Shown here: positions 24,893-57,338 of the stretch, piece after piece
Layout of the letters: each line of letters begins with the position of its first letter
How positions within the stretch are numbered: the stretch's first letter is position 1
Source of the DNA: Sedimentibacter saalensis
Lineage (GTDB): Bacteria; Bacillota; Clostridia; Tissierellales; Sedimentibacteraceae
Reading direction: 5' to 3'
Assembly (NCBI RefSeq): GCF_007830175.1
Contig: NZ_VLKH01000005.1
Span: 124,001 to 188,000, forward strand
DNA: 64,000 bases
The notes under the pieces: model-generated
What the model was told of the DNA's origin: nothing
What the model saw: only the letters and a program-made list of their open reading frames with translations
Databases searched by the model: none
Translations under genes and position numbers: made by a program

Positions 24893-24978
24893 TGGTGCGG
24901 TCGGGGGGATTTGAACCCCCACGAATATACATTCGCTAGCCCCTCAAGCTAGTGCGTCTGCCGTTCCGCCACGACCGC
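24893..24978 (-). tRNA. tRNA-Leu (GAG anticodon)
   Basis: An 86-nt class II tRNA. Acceptor GCGGTCG/CGACCGC, discriminator A and an encoded CCA (complement of 24893-24895) are present. The anticodon stem CTAGC/GCTAG surrounds loop TTGAGGG with anticodon GAG. The variable arm CGAATGTATATTCG and T arm GGGGG-TTCAAAT-CCCCC are typical of tRNA-Leu. Confidence 0.95.
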
Positions 24979-26048: not shown

Positions 26049-26402
26049 ATGAGAATTAATGAGATGGCGTCAATTTTAAATGCAGAAATCATTACAGACT
26101 TCAGCGATGAAAATACAGATATCAACTATGGATTTGCCAGTGACTTAATGAGTGATGTTTTGGCGTTTGCAACAAGTGAATCAATTCTTATTACAGGTCT
26201 TAACAACCAACAGGTTATAAGGACTGCTGAGATGATGGATATTACCACTGTTATATTTGTAAGGGGTAAGAAACCGTGTAAAGAAATAGTAGATTTGGCT
26301 GTAGAGAATAAATTGACAATTTTGGCGACAGACTATACCATGTTTAAAACCTGCGGTCTCTTGGTTATAAATGGAATGAAGGGAATTGAAGGTAATGACT
26401 GA
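26049..26402 (+). CDS. Stand-alone DRTGG-type domain protein (first of two)
   Basis: A 117-residue protein starting MRINEMASILNAEIIT, followed by GFASDLMSDVLAF (the usual 'G-x-GDLLS' segment of DRTGG/HPr-kinase N-terminal-like domains), LITGLNNQQVIRTAEMMD and VIFVRGKKP. The fold is found next to CBS and kinase domains and may bind a nucleotide or protein partner. The start is chosen at 26049 after GGGGG. It heads the island and overlaps the ATPase gene by 8 bp. This type of gene recurs next to sensory [FeFe]-hydrogenases in clostridia. Confidence 0.75.
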   Translation: MRINEMASILNAEIITDFSDENTDINYGFASDLMSDVLAFATSESILITGLNNQQVIRTAEMMDITTVIFVRGKKPCKEIVDLAVENKLTILATDYTMFKTCGLLVINGMKGIEGND

Positions 26403-26820
26403 AAACTTTTTAAAAAGGTACAGTTTCAACATTGCTGCAAATGATTTCATAAATGCAGGTAAAGCTTCCAGTGCTATAAAGGGCAATTTAAAATCAATGG
26501 GAATTAATGCGCATATTGTAAGAAGAATTGCTATAATATCATATGAGGCAGAAATAAATATTGTAATCCATTCACTTGGGGGACAGCTTCACTGCGACCT
26601 ATACCATGATAGAATAGTGATCACTTCAAATGACGTGGGACCCGGAATAAATGATATTGAAATGGCAATGACGGAAGGATTTTCAACTGCTCCGGAATCC
26701 GTAAGGGAACTAGGTTTTGGAGCCGGCATGGGTTTGCCTAACATGAAAAAATATTCTGATGATTTTAAAATAACCTCAGGCAGCAATGGCACAGAAATTG
26801 TAATAACTATATTCCTATAG
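26395..26820 (+). CDS. Anti-sigma-factor-like (RsbT/RsbW type) ATP-binding protein
   Basis: This 141-residue GHKL ATPase domain stands alone. The N box lies in RRIAIISYEAEINIVIHS, the G1 box is DVGPGI, and the G2 box GFGAGMGLPNMKK is intact, so ATP binding is expected. The arrangement resembles RsbT or SpoIIAB kinases, not sensor histidine kinases; there is no DHp domain. It may phosphorylate a partner such as the DRTGG proteins, but no STAS or sigma partner is encoded nearby. It overlaps the first DRTGG gene and precedes the hydrogenase gene by 9 bp. Confidence 0.82.
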   Translation: MTENFLKRYSFNIAANDFINAGKASSAIKGNLKSMGINAHIVRRIAIISYEAEINIVIHSLGGQLHCDLYHDRIVITSNDVGPGINDIEMAMTEGFSTAPESVRELGFGAGMGLPNMKKYSDDFKITSGSNGTEIVITIFL

Positions 26821-26829
26821 GAGGCTAAA

Positions 26830-28077
26830 ATGAATTTTTCTATTATGTTCGATAAGGAAAAATGCAAGGGTTGCACCAATTGTATGAAAAGGTGTCCTAC
26901 CCAGGCTATAAGGCTCATCGACGGCAAGGCATTCATAAACAGCACTAAATGCATACATTGCGGGGAATGCATAAAAATATGTCCATACAGTGCATATACT
27001 CCTGAACCTATAGAATGGTATGAAGAAATGCATTATTCTTCTTATAAATACAAAATTGCAATTCCGGGTACTCCGCTGTATGGTCAGTTTCCAAAAAAAA
27101 TAGACATATGCAGAGTTCAAAATGCCATATTGAAACTTGGTTTCGATTATGTATACGATGCAAGCTGGGCAGCAGAAATAGTTGCAAAAGCCATAGCAAA
27201 AAAAATCGGCAAGGAAAAAATGATAAGACCTTTGATTTCTGCAAACTGTCCGGCAGCAGTCAGGCTAATTAAAAACAGATACCCATCTCTTATGGACAAT
27301 TTAATACTACTTAAGGAACCTATGGAAATAGGAGCAATGATGGCAAGGGAAAGGGCAAAGAAACTATATAACCTCAAGGATGATGAAATAGGAGTTTTTT
27401 ATATATCACCATGTCCTGCAAAACTTTTAGCTGTAACAGACCCCATAGGAAATTACAAGCCTTCTGTTGACTGGGTAATTCCATTGAACACTATTTATGG
27501 TGATTTGTACAGAGAAGTTCTCTCTCAGGATAACAAGACGTGTTCATATCCTTCTACAAGCGGAATTAAATGGGCTGTGTCCGGAGGTCAATCGGAATCG
27601 GCAGGTCTTAACAATTACATTGCCGTGAATGGAATGGAAAATATAATTCAAATACTGGATGAAATAGAAAACGGAAGATTAAACGATGTTGATTATGTGG
27701 AAGCTTTAGCCTGTGTACAGGGGTGTGTCGGCGGAACATTCAACGTTGTAAATCCTTTTGTTGCAAGCAGCAACATTAAAAATATAATAAGCTGTGCCGA
27801 TTACGAATGCATAAATCCTGATCTTGACAGATTTGAAGAACTGTATGAATCGGGAGTGCTAAAGTACAGGCTCATGGAAGAAAACAATCCAAACAATTTC
27901 AACATGAAAGAAGCAATTGAAAGAAGTGAAAAAATAAAGGAAATAACAGATTTGCTTCCCGGACTTGACTGTGGTTCCTGCGGAGCGCCCACCTGCAGCG
28001 CTCATGCTGAGGATGTTTATAACAACCAGTCAAAATTGTATGACTGCGTTGTATTAAGAGCTAACGAAAAGAGGTAG
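26830..28077 (+). CDS. Sensory-type [FeFe]-hydrogenase (HydS-like, putative group D)
   Basis: A 415-residue iron-sulfur protein. The N-terminus has two [4Fe-4S] motifs (CKGCTNCMKRCP and CIHCGECIKICP), followed by the H-cluster domain and a C-terminal extra Fe-S motif (DCGSCGAPTC). The four H-cluster cysteine ligands are present: Cys140 in ANCPA (motif 1), Cys195 in SPCPAK (motif 2) and Cys295/Cys299 in ACVQGC (motif 3). However, motif 1 lacks the proton-transfer Cys of TSCCP (Asn139 instead), and motif 2 lacks the glutamate of MPCxxKxxE. These changes are known in sensory, slow or non-turnover hydrogenases. With kinase-like and PHP neighbours, a redox/H2 sensor role is inferred. H-cluster maturation genes are not in the window. 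Confidence 0.85.
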   Translation: MNFSIMFDKEKCKGCTNCMKRCPTQAIRLIDGKAFINSTKCIHCGECIKICPYSAYTPEPIEWYEEMHYSSYKYKIAIPGTPLYGQFPKKIDICRVQNAILKLGFDYVYDASWAAEIVAKAIAKKIGKEKMIRPLISANCPAAVRLIKNRYPSLMDNLILLKEPMEIGAMMARERAKKLYNLKDDEIGVFYISPCPAKLLAVTDPIGNYKPSVDWVIPLNTIYGDLYREVLSQDNKTCSYPSTSGIKWAVSGGQSESAGLNNYIAVNGMENIIQILDEIENGRLNDVDYVEALACVQGCVGGTFNVVNPFVASSNIKNIISCADYECINPDLDRFEELYESGVLKYRLMEENNPNNFNMKEAIERSEKIKEITDLLPGLDCGSCGAPTCSAHAEDVYNNQSKLYDCVVLRANEKR

Positions 28078-28081
28078 AACT

Positions 28082-28414
28082 ATGAAGACAATGGAATTTG
28101 CTCAAAGTTTAAATTTGCAACCTTTGTTCAGTACAGACAAGGACATGAATGTTGAAGGTGTTTATGTAGGGGATTTATTAAGCATAGTAATGGCAAAGGC
28201 AAAACAAAATTATGCCTGGATTACCATACAAACTCACATAAACATTGTTGCTGTTGCCGATCTTTTGGATTTGTCATGCATAATTGTAGTGGAAAATATG
28301 GAAGTGGAGGAAGAAACGCTTGAAAAGGCCAGGGAGCTTGACATACCTATTTTTAAAACAAAGGAAAGCGCCTACAGTGTTGCATGTAATCTTTTTAAAA
28401 TGGGAATAAAATGA
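28082..28414 (+). CDS. Stand-alone DRTGG-type domain protein (second of two)
   Basis: This 110-residue protein has the same plan as the gene at 26049: GVYVGDLLSIVMAKA near residue 25-40 (the 'GDLLS' segment), WITIQTHINIVAVADLLD, and LDIPIFKTKESAY. It differs enough in sequence to be an ancient paralogue. It starts 4 bp after the hydrogenase stop and overlaps the PHP gene by 4 bp (ATGA), showing tight coupling in the island. Confidence 0.78.
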   Translation: MKTMEFAQSLNLQPLFSTDKDMNVEGVYVGDLLSIVMAKAKQNYAWITIQTHINIVAVADLLDLSCIIVVENMEVEEETLEKARELDIPIFKTKESAYSVACNLFKMGIK

Positions 28415-29100
28415 AATTTTATTACGACCTTCACATTCATTCTGATTTGTCGCCCTGCGGCAGCAGCGATATGACACCAAACAATATTGTAAACATGTCA
28501 TATATAAAAGGACTTAATATCATATCAGTAACAGACCACAACACTGCAAGAAATTTACCTCCGGTAGTCATGCTTGGAGAAAGAGCAGGCATAAAGGTGG
28601 TGCCGGGAATTGAAGTAACAACAAAGGAAGAAGTCCACGTTCTTTGTTATTTCAGAAATCTTATTGATGCTCTTCAATTCGGTGATATTATTTATTCTTC
28701 GTTACCCGACATGGTGAACAATCCAATTATTTTCGGAGAACAGAACATTTATAATGAGTTGGACGAAAAAACAGGGAGTCTTGGAAAGCTTTTGTTAAAT
28801 GCTGTATCATTGTCAATTGGGGAAGTGCACAGCATGGCTGTTTCTCATAACGGCATCATGGTGCCTGCCCACATAAATAAAAAATCAAACAGCATATTAG
28901 GAGTTCTTGGATTTATTCCAAAAAATTTATGCATTGATCTTGTGGAGATTTATGATAAAACAGCAATTGATGAAAAGTATGTTGAAGGATTAAGAATCTT
29001 AAGAAATTCTGATGCTCATCAGCTTGTGGACATATCTGAAGCAAAGAATTTTTTTGAGCTTGATGACATTGAAAATATTTACGATTACATGAACATATAA
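28411..29100 (+). CDS. PHP-domain metal-dependent phosphoesterase-like protein
   Basis: A 229-residue PHP domain. The metal-ligand motifs are visible in order: DLHIHSDLSPCG (residues 5-16), SVTDHNTARN, GIEVTTKEE, a later PAHINKKSNS, and NSDAHQL near the end. Such proteins hydrolyse phosphoester bonds, for example histidinol phosphate or nucleotides, but the substrate is unknown here. Its position after hydS and DRTGG, with an overlapping start, suggests it produces or destroys a phosphorylated signal in the same pathway. A small hairpin follows its stop. Confidence 0.88.
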   Translation: MKFYYDLHIHSDLSPCGSSDMTPNNIVNMSYIKGLNIISVTDHNTARNLPPVVMLGERAGIKVVPGIEVTTKEEVHVLCYFRNLIDALQFGDIIYSSLPDMVNNPIIFGEQNIYNELDEKTGSLGKLLLNAVSLSIGEVHSMAVSHNGIMVPAHINKKSNSILGVLGFIPKNLCIDLVEIYDKTAIDEKYVEGLRILRNSDAHQLVDISEAKNFFELDDIENIYDYMNI

Positions 29101-29120
29101 AGTCGCAGATGCGACTTTTT
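29099..29120 (+). terminator. Attenuator-like terminator inside the hydrogenase island
   Basis: AAAGTCGCA (29099-29107) pairs with TGCGACTTT (29110-29118), followed by TT. It lies between the PHP gene and the last ATPase gene, so it may set the ratio of the proteins or end the island early. Confidence 0.65.
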
Positions 29121-29137
29121 ATGTTAACGGAGGAATT

Positions 29138-29683
29138 ATGAAAGAAATTTCAATGCATATATTGGATATTGTAATGAACAGCGTTAAAGCCAAATCAACG
29201 CTTATTGAAATAGAAGTTGAAGACAGCGTGAAAAAAAACTGCCTGAATATTATAATCAAGGACAATGGTATAGGAATGAGCGAAGAAATGCTTAAAAAAG
29301 TCACAGACCCTTTTTTTACTACACGTACAACCAGAAAGGTCGGTCTGGGTCTTCCCATGCTCAAAGAATCATGTGAAAGATGCAACGGAAAATTGACCAT
29401 TGATTCACAATTAGGAGCAGGAACCGTGCTGAAATGTTTCTTTGAAAGAAATAATATTGACCGTGCCCCCATGGGAAACATGGGTGAAACTATTATGACA
29501 ATAATTAATTCTTTGCATGATTGTGAATTAATTTACACTCATTACACAGACTGCGGAATGTTTTCTCTTAGCACTGAAGAAATAAAGAATATACTGGATG
29601 GAGGAGATATTTTAGACAGCTCTGTCCTCCTTTGGATCAAGGATTACATCAATGAAAACATTAGAGAATTATCTATAAATTAA
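29138..29683 (+). CDS. Histidine-kinase-type ATPase domain protein without DHp domain
   Basis: A 181-residue GHKL protein. It shows the N box (ISMHILDIVMNSVKA), G1 (DNGIGM), F box (DPFFTT) and G2 (KVGLGLPMLKES) of sensor kinases, but no dimerisation/phospho-acceptor domain or TM segment. A C-terminal extension of about 70 residues (from APMGNMGETIMTIINS) is not part of the ATPase fold and is not recognised. It would need a partner to deliver a phosphate, perhaps the DRTGG protein. It lies last in the island, 37 bp after the PHP gene and about 185 bp before the rnf operon. Confidence 0.82.
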   Translation: MKEISMHILDIVMNSVKAKSTLIEIEVEDSVKKNCLNIIIKDNGIGMSEEMLKKVTDPFFTTRTTRKVGLGLPMLKESCERCNGKLTIDSQLGAGTVLKCFFERNNIDRAPMGNMGETIMTIINSLHDCELIYTHYTDCGMFSLSTEEIKNILDGGDILDSSVLLWIKDYINENIRELSIN

Positions 29684-29767: not shown

Positions 29768-29796
29768 TTTAAAAGTTAAATATAATCTGTTATAAT
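29768..29796 (+). promoter_or_regulatory. Promoter of the rnf operon
   Basis: TTTAAA (29768-29773), 17 bp, TATAAT (29791-29796), leaving a leader of roughly 65 nt before rnfC. A second TATAAT at 29781 is also present. Confidence 0.6.
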
Positions 29797-29869: not shown

Positions 29870-31201
29870 ATGAGCACAAAGTTGTTTACTTTTAAAGGTG
29901 GAGTACATCCCCCTCAAAACAAGACATTTACGCAAAATGTGCCGATTGAAGATGCAGTTGATCCTAAAATTGTTGTTATCCCATTATCACAGCACATAGG
30001 AGCACCGTGCGATCCATTGGTAGCTGTAGGCGATACAGTTAAAGTTGGTCAAAAAATAGGCGAATCAAAAGCCTTTGTTTCAGTACCGGTTCATTCAAGC
30101 GTATCTGGAACAGTTAAAAAAATTGAACAGCATCAAGTTCCCGGAGGTTCGAAAGTTAATTGTATAATTATAGAATCTGATGGAAAGTTTGAAGTTCATG
30201 AATCTGTTCAGCCAAAAGGCAGTTTAGAAAGTCTTTCAAAAGATGAAATTTTATCAATCATCAAAGAAGCTGGTATGGCAGGTATGGGCGGAGCAGCATT
30301 CCCTACTCATGTTAAACTTGCTCCTCCAAAGGACAAGGTTATAGACGTGCTGTTGGTAAACGGAGCTGAATGTGAACCTTATCTCACAGCAGACCACAGA
30401 ATTATGCTTGAAAAGCCTGAACTTGTAATGCTTGGCATAAAAGCCATAAAAAAGGCTCTTAGTGTTGAGAAATGCTATATTGCTATTGAAAAAAATAAAC
30501 CGGATGCAATTGAAACATTGCAAAAATTAGCCCAAGGCGAAGACGGCATTGAAGTATGCCCTATGGAAGTAAAATATCCTCAAGGGGATGAAAAGAGAAT
30601 TATCAATGCAATTACGGGAAGAATAGTTCCTTCAGGCGGACTTCCTATGGAAGTTGGCTGTGTTGTAGAAAATGTTGGAACAGTTGCTACAATTGGAAAT
30701 GTATTTTTGACAGGCATGCCTGCAGTACAAAGAGTTGTTACTGTATCAGGAAGCGCTGTAAAAAATCCTAAGAATATTTACGTAAGAATAGGTACATTAT
30801 TTAAAGATGTTATTGAACAGTGCGGCGGTTACTCTGAAGAACCTGGAAAAATATTAAATGGCGGACCTATGATGGGTATTGCGCAATTTACAGATGAAGT
30901 TCCGGTTGTTAAGGGGACATCAGGTATATTGGTATTCAACAAAAAGGATGCACAGATTCCTGAGCCTTCAAATTGTATTTTGTGCGGCAGATGCGTTGAA
31001 GCATGCCCTGTTTATCTGCAGCCATACAAGATCAGCAGATTTTCAATGTTGAAAAAATTCGACGAAGCTGATGAACTGCATGGAGCAGATTGCATCGAAT
31101 GCGGCGGTTGTTCTTATGTATGTCCTGCAAAGAGACCTTTAAAAGAGACAATCAGCATCGCTAAAAAAGAAATATTAACAAGACGCAAAAAGGCAAAATA
31201 G
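29870..31201 (+). CDS. rnfC: Rnf complex subunit RnfC (NADH/NAD+-facing)
   Basis: RnfC is the peripheral subunit that exchanges electrons with NAD(H). Its 443 residues include the start FKGGVHPPQNK, a lipoyl-like N-terminal domain, the NADH/FMN-binding Rossmann-like part (GGAAFPTHVKL, NGAECEPYLTADHR, with its conserved NGAECEPY), and two C-terminal [4Fe-4S] motifs (CILCGRCVEACP and CIECGGCSYVCP). It is the first gene of rnfCDGEAB, the order known from Acetobacterium and clostridia. The ATG at 29870 is preceded by GAGGTGG; the GTG at 29861 overlaps it. Confidence 0.97.
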   Translation: MSTKLFTFKGGVHPPQNKTFTQNVPIEDAVDPKIVVIPLSQHIGAPCDPLVAVGDTVKVGQKIGESKAFVSVPVHSSVSGTVKKIEQHQVPGGSKVNCIIIESDGKFEVHESVQPKGSLESLSKDEILSIIKEAGMAGMGGAAFPTHVKLAPPKDKVIDVLLVNGAECEPYLTADHRIMLEKPELVMLGIKAIKKALSVEKCYIAIEKNKPDAIETLQKLAQGEDGIEVCPMEVKYPQGDEKRIINAITGRIVPSGGLPMEVGCVVENVGTVATIGNVFLTGMPAVQRVVTVSGSAVKNPKNIYVRIGTLFKDVIEQCGGYSEEPGKILNGGPMMGIAQFTDEVPVVKGTSGILVFNKKDAQIPEPSNCILCGRCVEACPVYLQPYKISRFSMLKKFDEADELHGADCIECGGCSYVCPAKRPLKETISIAKKEILTRRKKAK

Positions 31202-31213
31202 GAGGAAATACAG

Positions 31214-32164
31214 ATGGAAAATAAATTGATTGGTTCATCGTCACCTCATATTAGATCCGATGAAACAACTCAAAAATTAATGCTGGACGTTATTATTGGA
31301 TTAACACCGGCATTGGCAGCAAGTATATTTTATTTTGGATTTAATTCAATTGTATTATTGGTGGCTTCTGTTGTAGCAGCTGTAGTAACAGAGTATTTGT
31401 GCGAAAGAGCCATGGGCAGAGCTATAACAGTTACAGATTTGAGTGCTGTTGTAACAGGTATATTGTTGGCTTTTAACTTGCCGGCATCAGCACCATGGTG
31501 GGTTGCTGTGGTTGGTGCTGCATTTGCAATAGCAGTAGTAAAGCAGGTTTTTGGTGGACTTGGTTTTAACTTTTTGAACCCGGCATTAGCTGGAAGAGCA
31601 TTTTTAATGGCATCATGGTCAACACATATGACATCAGGATTTATAAATCCGGTTACGGATGTTGTTGCTTCTGCAACACCATTAGCAATATTAAAAGGTA
31701 CAGCAACAGGCACACTTCCATCAGTTATGGACATGCTGCTTGGTAATATACCTGGAGTTATCGGAGAAACTTCAGCAATACTTCTTTTAATAGGTGGTAT
31801 TTATTTAATATACAGAGGAACCATAAAGTGGATTATTCCTGTAGTGTATATTGGCACAGTAGCTGTAATAGCACTAGTTGTTGACGGAGGAGGCATGCTT
31901 TTATATCATATATTAGGCGGCGGACTCATGCTTGGAGCATTTTTTATGGCAACTGACTATTCAACAAGCCCAGTTACTGACAAGGGTAAAGTTATTTTTG
32001 CTGTGGGAGCAGGTGTGCTGACAATGCTTATCAGAAAAGTTGGCGGATATCCTGAAGGAGTAAGCTATTCTATACTTCTTATGAACATTTTAACTCCTAT
32101 GATAGATAAGTATGTTACACCGAAAGTTTTTGGAGTAGCAGGAGGTGTAAAGAATGAAAAATAG
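31214..32164 (+). CDS. rnfD: Rnf complex subunit RnfD
   Basis: A 316-residue integral membrane subunit, with about nine hydrophobic helices and covalent FMN. The FMN-attachment threonine lies in ASATPLAILKG (S-x-T/AT motif, NqrB-like). SSPHIRSDETTQKLM at the N-terminus and NPALAGRAFLMASW are family hallmarks. The end overlaps rnfG by 11 bp. Confidence 0.97.
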   Translation: MENKLIGSSSPHIRSDETTQKLMLDVIIGLTPALAASIFYFGFNSIVLLVASVVAAVVTEYLCERAMGRAITVTDLSAVVTGILLAFNLPASAPWWVAVVGAAFAIAVVKQVFGGLGFNFLNPALAGRAFLMASWSTHMTSGFINPVTDVVASATPLAILKGTATGTLPSVMDMLLGNIPGVIGETSAILLLIGGIYLIYRGTIKWIIPVVYIGTVAVIALVVDGGGMLLYHILGGGLMLGAFFMATDYSTSPVTDKGKVIFAVGAGVLTMLIRKVGGYPEGVSYSILLMNILTPMIDKYVTPKVFGVAGGVKNEK

Positions 32165-32720
32165 TTATGTACGTTTAGGCGGTATTTTATTTTTAATTGC
32201 TGCAATATCAGCAGGTGTGCTTGCATTTTTGAATGATTCTACAAAGGATTTAATTGCTAAAAACGAAGCCATGGCTGCCACAAGCCCTGAAGTTTTGGAA
32301 TCAGTAATGCCTGGTTCAGTAATGTTCAATGACTATGCAGATGCAGCTTTAGTTGAAACTATAAAATCAGAAAACGGAAAATTCGTAAATCTTCAAACAG
32401 CTGTAGATGCTTCTAACAATGAACTTGGTTATGTTGTAAGAACATTCAGTACAGTTGCTGGTTATGGCGGAGATATGGAATTGTTTGTGGGTATTTCTCC
32501 AGAAGGCAAAATTACAGGCGTAAATGTAGTTTCACATTCTGAGACTTCAGGTCTTGGTTCAAGAACTACAGAGCCATCATTCACATCACAGTTTGCCGGC
32601 AAGGATGCAACTGCAGAAATTACTGATTTTGATGCTATAACAGGAGCTACTAAGTCTTCTAAATCATTCCTGAGCGCAGTTAACAACGCAATAAGCATCT
32701 ATGATCAATATTTAAAATAG
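32154..32720 (+). CDS. rnfG: Rnf complex subunit RnfG (covalent FMN)
   Basis: A 188-residue protein with an N-terminal signal anchor (YVRLGGILFLIAAISAGVLAF) and an extracytoplasmic FMN-binding domain. The flavin-attachment motif is TGATKS in DAITGATKSSKSFL, preceded by HSETSGLGSR, the typical FMN_bind stretch. The FMN is normally added by ApbE; no apbE gene is in the window. It overlaps rnfD. Confidence 0.97.
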   Translation: MKNSYVRLGGILFLIAAISAGVLAFLNDSTKDLIAKNEAMAATSPEVLESVMPGSVMFNDYADAALVETIKSENGKFVNLQTAVDASNNELGYVVRTFSTVAGYGGDMELFVGISPEGKITGVNVVSHSETSGLGSRTTEPSFTSQFAGKDATAEITDFDAITGATKSSKSFLSAVNNAISIYDQYLK

Positions 32721-32729
32721 GAGGAAGAC

Positions 32730-33326
32730 ATGAACAAATTAGATATATTTAAGAATGGTATTACCAAAGAGAATCCTATTTTAGTTCAACAGGTTGGTAT
32801 GTGTGCAACACTTGCTGTTACAACTTCTCTTTTAAACGGAATAGGAATGGGAATCGCAGTTATAGCTGTTTTGACAGGATCAAACATAGTTATTTCTCTT
32901 TTAAGAAAATTTATACCCGATGAGGTACGTATACCTGCATTCGTTATAATAATAGCAGCATTTACAACTATAGTTGACTTATTGATGCATGCATATACTT
33001 TTGCATTATATCAGGCACTGGGTGTATTTATACCTTTGATAGTTGTAAACTGTTTAATTCTTGCCAGAGCAGAAGCATTTGCATTTAAAAACGGTGTAGT
33101 TGATTCTATTATTGACGGTCTTGGAATGGGAGCAGGCTACCTGGTTGCAATGATCTTATTAAGTTCAGTAAGAGAATTTTTAGGTAATGGAACACTTTTT
33201 GGAATAAATGTCCTTCCGGCATCTTATGAGCCGATGATGATTGCAATTCAACCACCGGGAGCTTTCATTATACTTGGATTACTGATAGGTCTTGTAAATT
33301 ACCTTTCAAGAAGAAAGAAAGCATAG
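32730..33326 (+). CDS. rnfE: Rnf complex subunit RnfE
   Basis: This 198-residue membrane subunit has six hydrophobic helices and the family start FKNGITKENPILVQQVGMCATLA in outline, with CATLAVT placed at the [2Fe-2S]-type site of the NqrD/RnfE family and NCLILARAEAFA in the second half. RnfA and RnfE form the membrane core that carries electrons between the two faces. GGAGGAAG precedes the ATG. Confidence 0.97.
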   Translation: MNKLDIFKNGITKENPILVQQVGMCATLAVTTSLLNGIGMGIAVIAVLTGSNIVISLLRKFIPDEVRIPAFVIIIAAFTTIVDLLMHAYTFALYQALGVFIPLIVVNCLILARAEAFAFKNGVVDSIIDGLGMGAGYLVAMILLSSVREFLGNGTLFGINVLPASYEPMMIAIQPPGAFIILGLLIGLVNYLSRRKKA

Positions 33327-33338
33327 GGGGTACGATAG

Positions 33339-33914
33339 ATGAATTTGATTAGTTTATTTATAACATCTGCGATTGTTAACAACATAATATTTTCGCAGTT
33401 TTTAGGAGCATGTCCTTTCCTTGGAGTTTCTAAAAAAATAGATACAGCAGCAGGTATGGGTGTTGCCGTAATATTCGTTATTACATTGGCTTCCGTTATA
33501 ACTTACATTGTTCAGAAAGCAATTTTGGATACATTGGGATTACAGTATCTGCAGACAATTATGTTTATATTGATTATTGCAGCATTGGTTCAGTTTGTTG
33601 AAATGTTCCTGAAGAAATCAGCTCCTGGTCTGTATCAGGCACTTGGTATTTATTTGCCGCTGATTACTACAAACTGTGCAGTTCTAGGTGTTGCCATCAT
33701 AAACATTACAAAAGAATATAACTTCATAGAAGCTATGGTAAACTCTGTTGGAACTTCATTGGGATTTTTCATTGCAATTGTGTTGTTTGCAGGAGTGAGA
33801 GATAAAGTTGATAATGCAGATTTGCCGGAATCATTGAAGGGTTCAGCTATTTCTTTGGTTGCAGCGGGTCTTATGTCTATTGCATTCCTAGGTTTCTCCG
33901 GATTGCAATTATAG
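33339..33914 (+). CDS. rnfA: Rnf complex subunit RnfA
   Basis: A 191-residue membrane subunit related to RnfE. It shows NNIIFSQFLGACPFLGVS near the start, carrying one of the two intramembrane Fe-S cysteines, and LITTNCAVLG in the second half, carrying the other. Six TM helices are expected. Its C-terminus, FSGLQL, is close to the RnfA consensus. It lies 12 bp behind rnfE. Confidence 0.97.
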   Translation: MNLISLFITSAIVNNIIFSQFLGACPFLGVSKKIDTAAGMGVAVIFVITLASVITYIVQKAILDTLGLQYLQTIMFILIIAALVQFVEMFLKKSAPGLYQALGIYLPLITTNCAVLGVAIINITKEYNFIEAMVNSVGTSLGFFIAIVLFAGVRDKVDNADLPESLKGSAISLVAAGLMSIAFLGFSGLQL

Positions 33915-33926
33915 GAGGGTAAAAAA

Positions 33927-34898
33927 ATGGTTATAGTTAGTGCAGCAGCGGTAACTGGCGGAATAGGTGTTGTATGCGGTGTCTTGTTGGCAGTTGCAGC
34001 AAAGCTATTTGCAGTTGAAGTTGATCAAAAAGTAATAGAAGTAAGAAATGCATTACCTGGAGCAAACTGCGGCGGATGTGGATTTGCAGGATGTGATGCA
34101 TTGGCAAATGCCATTGCAGCCGGAAAAGCTCCTGTTAACGGATGTCCTGTTGCAAACAAGCAGGCTCATGAAAAAATTGCTTCCATCATGGGAGTAACTG
34201 CAGATGAATCAGAAAAGAAAGTTGCACATGTAATGTGCCAGGGCTGCGATACAGTAGCAAAACAAAAATATGAGTATAACGGAGTTCCTGACTGCAAGGC
34301 AGCAGCAGCAGTTATGGGCGGAAACAAATCATGCGACAAAGGCTGTCTGGGATTTGGAAACTGTAAAGTAGTATGTGCTTTTGATGCTATTGAAATAGTT
34401 GACGGGCTGGCAGTAATAGATAAAGATAAATGTACTTCTTGCGGAAAATGTATTGAAGAATGTCCAAAGGCTGTTATTGAATTTGTACCTTACAAAAACA
34501 ATGTAATAGTTGGATGTCACAACAAGGATTTCGGTAAAGCAGTAAAGGATGTTTGCTCAGTAGGCTGCATCGGATGTAAAATCTGTGAAAAAAACTGTGC
34601 ATTTGATGCAATTCACGTAACAGACAACCTGGCAAAAGTTGATTATGATAAGTGTACACACTGCATGGTTTGCGTTGAAAAGTGCCCTACAAAGGCAATT
34701 CAAGGAGATTTGCTTTCCAGAAAGAAAGCTAATATAATTGAAGAAGGCTGTATAGGATGTACAATATGCGCAAAGAATTGTCCTGTAAGTGCAATCGAAG
34801 GCGAACTGAAAAAGACACACAAGGTTGACCCGGAAAAGTGCATTGGCTGCGGTGTATGTGCTACAAAATGTCCTAAGAAAACAATTGAAATGAAATAG
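33927..34898 (+). CDS. rnfB: Rnf complex subunit RnfB (ferredoxin-facing)
   Basis: RnfB takes electrons from reduced ferredoxin. This 323-residue protein has an N-terminal TM helix (VVCGVLLAVAAKLF) and the GANCGGCGFAGC Fe-S domain. Five further four-cysteine motifs follow, including CTSCGKCIEECP, CIGCKICEKNC, CTHCMVCVEKCP, CIGCTICAKNCP and CIGCGVCATKCP, so six clusters are likely, as in Acetobacterium RnfB. It is last in the operon and is followed by a strong terminator and then a structured repeat element. Confidence 0.97.
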   Translation: MVIVSAAAVTGGIGVVCGVLLAVAAKLFAVEVDQKVIEVRNALPGANCGGCGFAGCDALANAIAAGKAPVNGCPVANKQAHEKIASIMGVTADESEKKVAHVMCQGCDTVAKQKYEYNGVPDCKAAAAVMGGNKSCDKGCLGFGNCKVVCAFDAIEIVDGLAVIDKDKCTSCGKCIEECPKAVIEFVPYKNNVIVGCHNKDFGKAVKDVCSVGCIGCKICEKNCAFDAIHVTDNLAKVDYDKCTHCMVCVEKCPTKAIQGDLLSRKKANIIEEGCIGCTICAKNCPVSAIEGELKKTHKVDPEKCIGCGVCATKCPKKTIEMK

Positions 34899-35170: not shown

Positions 35171-35809
35171 ATGGAAGCTTTGAAAAATATAGAAAACGAT
35201 TTAAAAGGAAAAACTATTGAACTTTCAGAATTTGAAAAAGACAAAACTGTATTGATTGTCATTGACATGGTCAATGGTTTTGTTTATTCAGGACCTTTGT
35301 CTTCGCCAAGAGTAGCAGGAATTGTAAAAAATATTACTGGATTAAATGAAAAAACCAAAGGCTTTAAAAAGGTTTTTTTCATGGACAGTCATGAAGAAAA
35401 TTCAAAGGAATTCGGAAGTTTTCCGCTGCACTGCATAAAGGGAAGCCATGAAGCAGAGCTTATACCGGAACTGAAAACTGAATTTTCAGAAGGACCGGAT
35501 ACATTATATATTGAAAAAAACAGCACCAATGGTTTTTATACCGATGAATTTCAGCAGTGGCTTGAGAAAAATATAGATGAAGTTGATAATTATATTATAA
35601 CGGGCTGTGTAACAGACATATGCGTGCTTCAGTTTGCCTTAAGCCTTAAGGCATATTTCAACGAAATGAACAAATGTAAAAGAATAGTAGTGCCCAAAGA
35701 TTGTGTTGAAACATATGACGGCGGTTCACATGATGGACACCTAATGAATTTATTTGCTCTTTACAACATGCACACAAGCGGCATAGAAATAGCAGATAAA
35801 ATAAACTAA
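35171..35809 (+). CDS. pncA: Nicotinamidase-like isochorismatase-family hydrolase
   Basis: A 212-residue cysteine hydrolase. The catalytic triad can be placed: Asp32 in VIDMVNGF, Lys116 in YIEKNS, and Cys151 in GCVTDICV, with the cis-peptide region before it. The metal-site histidine region is represented by DSHEENSKEFGSFPLHC. The downstream neighbour, nicotinate phosphoribosyltransferase, makes nicotinamide deamidation (nicotinamide to nicotinate) the likely reaction; another isochorismatase-type substrate is possible. The two genes are 10 bp apart. Confidence 0.85.
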   Translation: MEALKNIENDLKGKTIELSEFEKDKTVLIVIDMVNGFVYSGPLSSPRVAGIVKNITGLNEKTKGFKKVFFMDSHEENSKEFGSFPLHCIKGSHEAELIPELKTEFSEGPDTLYIEKNSTNGFYTDEFQQWLEKNIDEVDNYIITGCVTDICVLQFALSLKAYFNEMNKCKRIVVPKDCVETYDGGSHDGHLMNLFALYNMHTSGIEIADKIN

Positions 35810-35819
35810 GGAGAATAAT

Positions 35820-37277
35820 ATGTATTATAATAATTTTGGCGACAGAAAATTACCCATGCTGATGGATTTTTACGAGCTCACCATGGCAAACGGATATTTT
35901 GCTAACGGTATGAAAGAAGACATCGTATATTTTGACATGTTCTTCAGAAAAAACCCAGACGGAGCAGGTTTTTCCATTGTTGCGGGATTAGAACAGGTTA
36001 TTCAGTACATAAAAGAATTGAAATTTAACGATCACGACATAGAATATTTAAGAAGCAAAAATATGTTCAAGGAAGAATTTTTACAGTATCTGAAAAACTT
36101 CAAATTTTCAGGAGATATTTACGCTATTCCTGAAGGTACTCCTGTTTTTCCAAACGAACCTCTCATAACAGTAAGAGCAAAGTCCATCGATGCTCAGCTC
36201 ATTGAAACAATGCTTCTTTTGACCATTAACCATCAAAGTCTCATAGCCACAAAGGCAAACCGTGTTGTGAGGGCTGCCAAAGGTAGACCAATCATGGAGT
36301 TTGGAGCAAGAAGAAGCCAGGGCTACGACGGTGCCATTTATGGAGCAAGAGCTGCCTACATAGGAGGAGTTGTGGGAACTGCCACAACGTTGGCTGATGA
36401 AGCATTTGGCGTTCCTGCCTTAGGCACAATGGCTCATTCGTGGGTTCAGATGTACGAAAGTGAATATGAAGCCTTTAAAGTGTATGCAGAGAACTACCCT
36501 GACAGCTGCACACTTTTAATAGATACATACAATGTAATAAAAAGCGGAATTCCTAATGCCATAAGAATTTCTAAGGAAATCCTTGAACCGATGGGAAAGA
36601 GGCTTAAGGGAGTACGAATTGACTCAGGAGACATAGCATATTTAAGCAAAAAGTGCAGGAAGATGTTAAATGAAGCAAATCTTCACGACTGCGCCATTGT
36701 AGCTTCAAACAGCCTTGATGAGTTCATCATAACGGATCTTTTAGACCAGGGAGCAAAAATTGATTCTTTTGGAGTTGGTGAAAGACTTATAACAGCGAAG
36801 TCAGAGCCTGTTTTCGGCTGTGTATACAAGCTTGCAGCCATTGAAAAAAACGGTGAAATCATACCAAAAATTAAAATATCTGAAAATGAAGAAAAAATTA
36901 CCAACCCCGGCTATAAAAAAGTATGGAGATTGTATGACAAAAAAGCTGACAATCCAATTGCAGATGTTGTTGCTCTGCATAATGAAGTCATTGACGATAC
37001 AAAACCATACACCATATTTGATGAAATTCATGTTTGGAAAAAGAAAAAAGTTACAAGGTTTTATGCCAAAAATCTACAGGTACCTGTCTTCATAGGGGGC
37101 GAATGTGTTTATGAAAGCCCGAGTTTAAATGAAATAAGAGATTACTGTAAAAAGGAAGTTGACAATTTGTGGAATGAAGTAAAGAGGTTTACAAATCCTC
37201 ACACATATTATGTTGACCTTTCATCTGATTTGTGGATTTGCAAACAGGATTTAATAGGGCAATACAGCTTTAAATAA
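35820..37277 (+). CDS. pncB: Nicotinate phosphoribosyltransferase
   Basis: PncB joins nicotinate and PRPP to nicotinate mononucleotide, feeding NAD synthesis. The 485-residue protein has the family's N-terminal LMDFYELTMANGYF, the catalytic FGARRSQG region (about residue 162), GTMAHSWVQMYESE and VRIDSGDIAYLSK, and a C-terminal extension as in the longer clostridial/Gram-positive type. It follows the nicotinamidase gene, forming a two-gene salvage operon that ends at a GC-rich terminator. Confidence 0.95.
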   Translation: MYYNNFGDRKLPMLMDFYELTMANGYFANGMKEDIVYFDMFFRKNPDGAGFSIVAGLEQVIQYIKELKFNDHDIEYLRSKNMFKEEFLQYLKNFKFSGDIYAIPEGTPVFPNEPLITVRAKSIDAQLIETMLLLTINHQSLIATKANRVVRAAKGRPIMEFGARRSQGYDGAIYGARAAYIGGVVGTATTLADEAFGVPALGTMAHSWVQMYESEYEAFKVYAENYPDSCTLLIDTYNVIKSGIPNAIRISKEILEPMGKRLKGVRIDSGDIAYLSKKCRKMLNEANLHDCAIVASNSLDEFIITDLLDQGAKIDSFGVGERLITAKSEPVFGCVYKLAAIEKNGEIIPKIKISENEEKITNPGYKKVWRLYDKKADNPIADVVALHNEVIDDTKPYTIFDEIHVWKKKKVTRFYAKNLQVPVFIGGECVYESPSLNEIRDYCKKEVDNLWNEVKRFTNPHTYYVDLSSDLWICKQDLIGQYSFK

Positions 37278-57178: not shown

Positions 57179-57338
57179 TATACTAGGAAAGTTCTCTTTC
57201 CTAGTATATAAAAAACGGGGATTGCAAAGGGCGGGACGCCCTTGCCGTCAAGGGGGGTGCTCAGCCAAAATACGTTAGTATTTTTGGCGCCGAAGGGGGA
57301 CATAGGTCCCCCTAGCGGAGTTGCGGAGCAACTTTTTT
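57172..57338 (+). repeat. Structured intergenic repeat, copy C
   Basis: This copy has the longest left palindrome, a perfect 20 bp (57172-57191 with 57196-57215). Downstream are AAGGGCGGGACGCCCTT, the variable hairpin CCAAAATAC/GTATTTTTGG, GGGGGACATAGGTCCCCC, and AGTTGCGGAGCAACT with a T run. Its last T residues touch the stop codon of rqcH on the minus strand. Compared with copy B, the extra AGGAAAG/CTTTCCT segment lies only in the tip of the first palindrome. Confidence 0.85.

Follow-up and report, generated by a model that had tools for sequence, protein, structure and literature searches.

A conserved six-gene island around a group D [FeFe]-hydrogenase of Sedimentibacter saalensis as a putative signalling cassette with exchangeable input

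The subject of this analysis is a six-gene island in a 64,000-nucleotide (nt) stretch of Sedimentibacter saalensis DNA (contig NZ_VLKH01000005.1, positions 124,001 to 188,000), which is referred to below as the window. The island consists of two genes for DRTGG-domain proteins (D1 and D4), two for stand-alone ATPases (K2 and K6), one for a PHP phosphoesterase (P5), and one for an [FeFe]-hydrogenase (HydS). The original prediction placed these genes at 26049-29683, overlapping or nearly touching except for one 37-bp gap, directly upstream of rnf. All of the open reading frames (ORFs) and Pfam domains were recovered as described, and rnfC to rnfB follow on the same strand, rnfC starting with the ATG at 29870. 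D1 and K2 overlap by 8 nt and D4 and P5 by 4 nt; K2 is separated from HydS by 9 nt and HydS from D4 by 4 nt, and the 37-nt gap lies between P5 and K6.

The conservation of the island was analyzed across the phylum Bacillota. Of 150 genomes from the taxonomic order to which the window belongs, 56 had a HydS-type match, as did 157 of the 398 genomes examined from the phylum. The co-occurrence table covered 397 phylum genomes, with the genome of the window left out (156 with HydS), and the locus survey comprised 120 fetched HydS loci from 57 families; as genomes of one family are not independent, the family count is a better guide than the p-value, which is not used as evidence here. All six genes were present in 96 of the 120 loci, and their order was identical in all 96. 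K2 was found in 116 loci and D4 in 115; of the incomplete loci, some are cut off by the end of a contig or have no P5, K6 or D1. The phi coefficient was 0.905 for HydS and P5, 0.907 for HydS and K6, and 0.928 for P5 and K6. HydS and P5 occurred together in 146 genomes, HydS alone in 10, P5 alone in 8, and neither in 233; in two of the eight P5-only genomes HydS is present as two overlapping pieces. The six genes are inherited as a unit across the whole phylum, and the co-conservation that the original prediction had proposed to search for proved very strong. Chance clustering was ruled out by phi values of about 0.9 together with the single gene order. A reduced variant was also noted at two loci (L137 and L167), where a second HydS copy is followed by D4, a [2Fe-2S] gene, NuoE, NuoF and HydA, with no K2, P5 or K6.

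Neighbouring genes of the cassette are joined into single ORFs in several lineages. D1-K2 fusions were found at nine loci in three families, HydS-D4 fusions in two genera of one family, P5-K6 fusions in three genera of one family, and K2-HydS fusions in two genera (601 amino acids (aa) in L177 and 626 aa in L212), so that the last three types are each kept in at least two genera. The survey also revealed cassettes that lack HydS and have the arrangement D1-[CBS2-K2]-D4-P5-K6 (L199, L200, L202, L208, L209). In these, a pair of CBS domains lies at the N-terminus of K2, as detected by Pfam for L208 (1.5e-28) and by the same sequence pattern for the other loci. At two further loci (L185 and L186), CBS-K2 and HydS occur together. 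HydS is thus not indispensable, as the rest of the cassette persists with CBS-K2 in some genomes, and it appears as one of two exchangeable inputs of K2. The simplest reading of these arrangements is that K2 would receive the input, and that D1, D4, P5 and K6 would form the core. In one family, K2-HydS lies at one locus and D1-D4-P5-K6 at another, and Rex adjoins the latter in three of four loci. Genome G534 has a D1-K2-HydS locus (L115) and a separate Rex-D1-CBS-K2-D4-P5-K6 locus (L208).

HydS contains two N-terminal [4Fe-4S] clusters, the H-domain, and a C-terminal Cx2Cx4Cx16C cluster (C381-C384-C389-C406), as determined by Pfam and alignment; Pfam detected no PAS domain in it. The H-cluster cysteines C140, C195, C295 and C299 are conserved at 100% in the cassette alignment, and the active-site motifs read A-N-C-P, I-S-P-C-P-A-K and E-A-L-A-C-V-Q-G-C. 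In CpI numbering, the proton-transfer cysteine C299 is replaced by Asn, M353 by Ser, and M497 by Leu. The reported marks of group D (M2e) are retained H-cluster cysteines, replacement of CpI C299, M353 changed to Ser or Thr, and M497 changed to Leu (PMC8163306). In a tree of 50 rows, which does not include TamHydS, the characterised group D enzyme of Thermoanaerobacter mathranii, HydS fell within a clade of 34 rows (support 100/99) distinct from bifurcating HydA, from the other hydrogenases of the same genome, and from hydrogenases with PAS or histidine kinase domains. As judged from active-site residues and the tree, HydS is a group D (M2e) [FeFe]-hydrogenase. Its closest records, with 98-99% identity, come from Sedimentibacter-type metagenome-assembled genomes. 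The genome of the window has six [FeFe]-hydrogenase genes. On its contig C3 (L196, 9493-11211 and 11198-12370), a hydrogenase gene of the group C clade overlaps a gene for a SpoIIE-type PP2C phosphatase, and with the SpoIIAB-like K2 beside the group D HydS, the two halves of partner-switching chemistry adjoin sensory-type hydrogenases in this genome.

Both small proteins, D1 and D4, scored above the Pfam cut-off for DRTGG. In D1 the motif reads D32-L-M-S35-D36, and the conservation of S35 in the cassette alignment is 100%; D4 has D31-L-L-S34, in which S34 is invariant. These two serines are candidate phospho-acceptors. The AlphaFold models rest on 5-6 close sequences. The D4 model matched the DRTGG structure 2ioj (TM-score 0.76), as well as the CBS-DRTGG pyrophosphatase and HPr kinase. 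In K2, conserved ATP-binding residues were found in the E51...N55 box (E-x3-N), D80-x-G-P-G and G107-F-G-A-G-M-G-L-P-N. Its scores against the NCBIfam models were 42.7 bits for spIIAB (4.7e-11; cut-off 135) and 21.3 bits for RsbW (cut-off 145), which indicates that K2 is related to the SpoIIAB/RsbW anti-sigma kinase families and yet is no member of them; a phmmer search of K2 against the PDB gave no match at E 0.01. P5 has the predicted metal ligands H8, H10, D42, H43, E68, H76, H154, D201 and H203, with the His, Asp and Glu ligands at 100%, and is classified on the Pfam match and these residues as a PHP phosphoesterase with a complete predicted metal site. In a profile search, the solved structures nearest to it were Endonuclease Q, an RNase AM-type exoribonuclease and 2yb1; of the NCBIfam models, TrlF and 3',5'-nucleoside bisphosphate phosphatase came closest. 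K6 carries the Bergerat motifs N14, D42-x-G-x-G and GLGLP, and a C-terminal extension in which D108, P111 and G113 are at 100%. Among the matches listed, the K6 model agreed best with MutL/GyrB-type ATPases (Z 12.2, 2.7 A over 127 residues). Kinase-type CA domains were absent from the best 50 matches and may be present further down. With respect to two-component systems, Pfam detected only HATPase domains in K2 and K6, and no DHp or receiver domain in the cassette.

Table 1. Positions of the island genes and adjoining features in the window.
Feature	Position	Strand	Evidence or remark
D1, DRTGG-domain protein, 117 aa	26049..26402	+	Pfam DRTGG 1.3e-8
K2, SpoIIAB/RsbW-like HATPase, 141 aa	26395..26820	+	Pfam HATPase_c 1.2e-6, HATPase_c_2 2.5e-6
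HydS, group D (M2e) [FeFe]-hydrogenase by residues and tree, 415 aa	26830..28077	+	Pfam Fe_hyd_lg_C 8.7e-27, Fer4, PF04060 9.4e-11
D4, second DRTGG protein, 110 aa	28082..28414	+	Pfam DRTGG 6.7e-6
P5, predicted PHP phosphoesterase, 229 aa	28411..29100	+	Pfam PHP 3.5e-7 (31.1 bits, cut-off 26.4)
Terminator/attenuator-like hairpin with T-run, directly 3' of P5	29099..29118	+	In the 37-nt P5-K6 gap
K6, stand-alone GHKL ATPase, 181 aa	29138..29683	+	Pfam HATPase_c 1.4e-16
rnfCDGEAB, ferredoxin:NAD+ oxidoreductase; neighbour and possible target, outside the cassette	29870..34898	+	RnfC TIGR01945 4.8e-164

Because of the hairpin in the gap after P5, the six genes may not form one uniform transcript, and attenuation ahead of K6 is suggested. 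Hairpins of differing sequence were found at the same position at seven surveyed loci (L074, L075, L079, L080, L083, L084, L085), so that the position, not the sequence, is kept in the family of the window and one sister family. In many other families of the same taxonomic order, overlapping or nearly touching genes take its place. A promoter-like site (29768-29796) lies between K6 and rnfC. In 33 of 36 loci these two genes are more than 100 nt apart, and co-transcription with rnf is therefore not to be assumed. A search for Rex sites with TTGTTAANNNNTTAACAA, allowing up to 3 mismatches, gave 24 matches compared with 16 expected, none of them convincing at the cassette. Behind rnf, at 35171-37277, there are genes for an isochorismatase-family (nicotinamidase-like) protein and nicotinate phosphoribosyltransferase, likely an NAD salvage pair; at several loci of this genus, too, an isochorismatase-type cluster comes after rnf. 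The window further contains a selenocysteine tRNA (1662-1759), a tRNA-Leu(gag) (24893-24978), and a Clostridiales-2 small RNA (57210-57300).

The genes downstream of the cassette differ between lineages. Among the 120 loci, Rnf was found at 40 (16 families), HydABC at 49 (32 families), both at 16 (6 families), and neither at 15; Rex lies near 19. Rnf follows the cassette in nearly all of the window's taxonomic order and in a few other families, and outside this order HydABC is usual. K6 is placed inside the HydABC operon in most loci of the HydABC type, flanked by the NuoE-type gene and the [2Fe-2S] gene that comes next. The HydABC-type operon of the genome under study (contig C1) has no K6. 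As Rnf, HydABC, both or neither may follow, the cassette travels between ferredoxin/NAD enzymes and belongs to no single one.

On this basis, we lean towards reading the island as a signalling cassette whose input can be exchanged. In this model, HydS would control the K2 ATPase/kinase and adjust the ferredoxin/NAD/H2 enzymes. HydS, as a slow group D enzyme, would equilibrate with H2 and/or the ferredoxin pool, and its state would pass by direct contact to K2, the SpoIIAB-like ATP-binding kinase or ATPase encoded just upstream. K2 would act with D1 and D4 as adaptors or phospho-acceptors (candidate site: the serine of D-L-x-S), P5 would reset the signal, and K6, paired with P5, would relay it to the adjoining redox machine, which is Rnf here and HydABC in most other families. 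In lineages with CBS-K2, the CBS pair would read adenine nucleotides, instead of HydS or beside it. Since the cassette encodes no DNA-binding protein, a dedicated regulator of that kind is less likely as the output than tuning at the post-translational level or a coupling to Rex, the NADH regulator. Contact between K2 and HydS is quite probable, and a redox- or H2-responsive signalling role for the whole cassette is probable. Phosphorylation of the DRTGG serines is doubtful. It also appears unlikely that the cassette represents a new bacterial signalling type, with a kinase-DRTGG-PHP core into which a hydrogenase or a CBS pair plugs as sensor, and one that phosphorylates the serines of the DRTGG proteins and has direct control of Rnf and bifurcating-hydrogenase activity according to H2 or energy charge. 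The original prediction had proposed a device that turns H2 or the redox state of ferredoxin into a signal of phosphoryl or nucleotide type. The co-conservation and the group D placement give good support to a dedicated device for H2/redox signalling; the conversion step is something that we infer. The statement that no phospho-acceptor or DNA-binding output is visible held at the level of domain families, though the invariant DRTGG serines are candidates for the former.

Several observations weigh against this model. No phospho-acceptor, STAS or output domain is recognisable by family in the cassette. The fusions join only adjacent genes and so partly reflect gene order. The solved relatives nearest to P5 act on nucleic acids or nucleotides, not on phosphoproteins, and K6, whose fold resembles MutL/GyrB-type ATPases, need not be a kinase. 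Across the S34 loop the D4 model has a predicted local distance difference test score below 50, and no claim on that site is based on it. Published electron paramagnetic resonance data on TamHydS (PMC13104023) oppose redox signalling via the C-terminal cluster. Finally, the assembly of the genome under study gave no HydG match and no HydF above the cut-off, which puts HydS maturation here in doubt; HydG is present in several members of the genus, and an assembly gap is the likely cause.

The cassette proteins might instead form an allosteric accessory complex that binds to or assembles with HydABC or Rnf and gates the flow of electrons directly. K6 and K2 would then be MutL/GyrB-like clamps driven by ATP, and no covalent signalling would take place. 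The position of K6 within most HydABC-type loci, its fold, and the missing acceptor and DNA-binding domains are consistent with this. The cassette is, however, also seen next to Rnf, next to Rex alone, and where no redox operon is nearby, and it is difficult to see what place a PHP phosphoesterase whose metal site is complete would have in a pure clamp; we consider such a complex rather unlikely. In a nucleotide-signal device, P5 would synthesise or degrade a small nucleotide or a phosphorylated metabolite, DRTGG or CBS domains would read the level of this compound, and HydS and the ATPases would control the step. Such a device would agree with the nucleic acid- and nucleotide-directed relatives of P5 and its closest NCBIfam models, with the CBS-K2 forms, and with the regulation of a clostridial pyrophosphatase by a unit of DRTGG plus CBS (3l31, 3l2b). 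The cassette, however, has no cyclase or synthetase, and P5 is absent from some HydS loci in which K2 and D4 are present (e.g., L145, L164, L171); we consider this device distinctly unlikely.

Two further explanations would dispense with signalling. If HydS were a minor catalytic hydrogenase and the other genes aided its maturation or repair, the maturation-type genes (radical SAM and HydF-like clusters) near three loci (L112, L113, L120) would be accounted for. The other five genes nevertheless persist without HydS, no HydE/F/G-type gene lies within the cassette, and the characterised group D enzyme is slow, with a retuned active site, according to PMC8163306, where TamHydS made in E. coli and supplied with synthetic cofactor is reported to be active in the absence of the other five genes. 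Such a biogenesis cluster is very improbable. The idea that the genes are operon neighbours with no joint function could appeal to fusions occurring only between adjacent genes; it is already contradicted by the phi values, the invariant order, and the persistence of the cassette beside differing downstream operons, and we give it almost no credence.

The signalling cassette, as we favour it, would be a widespread device of anaerobes that sets the ferredoxin/NADH/H2 balance, with consequences for H2 yield and for H2 metabolism in syntrophy and in the gut. The K2-HydS and HydS-D4 fusions name two concrete candidate partners of HydS, the HydS-less CBS-K2 cassettes suggest K2 as the point at which the input enters, and the natural single-chain fusions make the cassette reading testable. 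In the open-access literature, DRTGG and hydrogenase came up together only in a paper on a Desulfovibrio mutant library, which mentions each word once. Parts of this gene order may already appear in the survey of clostridial hydrogenases that Calusinska and others published in 2010. As far as the open-access literature goes, the following are apparently new: the unit of six genes together with its measured co-inheritance, the form linked to Rnf, the fusions by which partners are named, and the CBS form that lacks HydS. A 2026 paper on TamHydS (PMC13104023) calls it critical, for clarifying how group D enzymes signal, that the interaction partners of the hydrogenase be found.

The original prediction that similar neighbours are known near group D hydrogenases agrees with the literature, where kinases and HydABC are reported (PMC8163306, PMC3561251). 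TamHydS resembles HydS in the two [4Fe-4S] clusters, the H-domain, the C-terminal Cx2Cx4Cx16C cluster and the lack of PAS, in the loss of the proton-transfer cysteine with M353 changed to S and M497 to L, and in a flanking HATPase gene; downstream it has HydABC, whereas the window has Rnf. Its flanking genes have been named as a HATPase and an AraC-type regulator. The available portions of the reports on it (PMC8163306, PMC13104023) contain no description of DRTGG, PHP or K6 components, of fusions, or of an exchange for CBS. In the loci surveyed here, D4 nearly always follows HydS, and the AraC label may be an annotation artefact. Sensory M2e/M2f genes upstream of trimeric HydABC, often with a histidine or serine kinase gene between, are listed in PMC3561251 (Table 6), which in its available part does not define a unit of six genes or any form that is linked to Rnf or lacks HydS. 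Group C (M2f, TmHydS type, with PAS) shares with HydS the H-domain family and a C-terminal FeS domain, but HydS has no PAS after that domain and belongs to a separate clade. In sigma-factor partner switching, a SpoIIAB/RsbW kinase works with a STAS antagonist and a PP2C phosphatase. The cassette is similar in K2, whose nearest relatives are SpoIIAB/RsbW-type kinases and which retains the E...N box, and in combining a protein that resembles a kinase with a phosphoesterase and a serine that is a candidate acceptor; it differs in having DRTGG and PHP proteins in place of STAS, PP2C and a sigma factor. Neither STAS nor PP2C was found by Pfam among the six genes, and the locus maps show no additional gene that is found repeatedly within the cassette. 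With the CBS-DRTGG region of the Clostridium perfringens pyrophosphatase (3l31, 3l2b), the cassette has the DRTGG fold in common, and its HydS-less forms likewise combine CBS pairs with DRTGG, but no pyrophosphatase is present and the CBS pair is fused to the HATPase.

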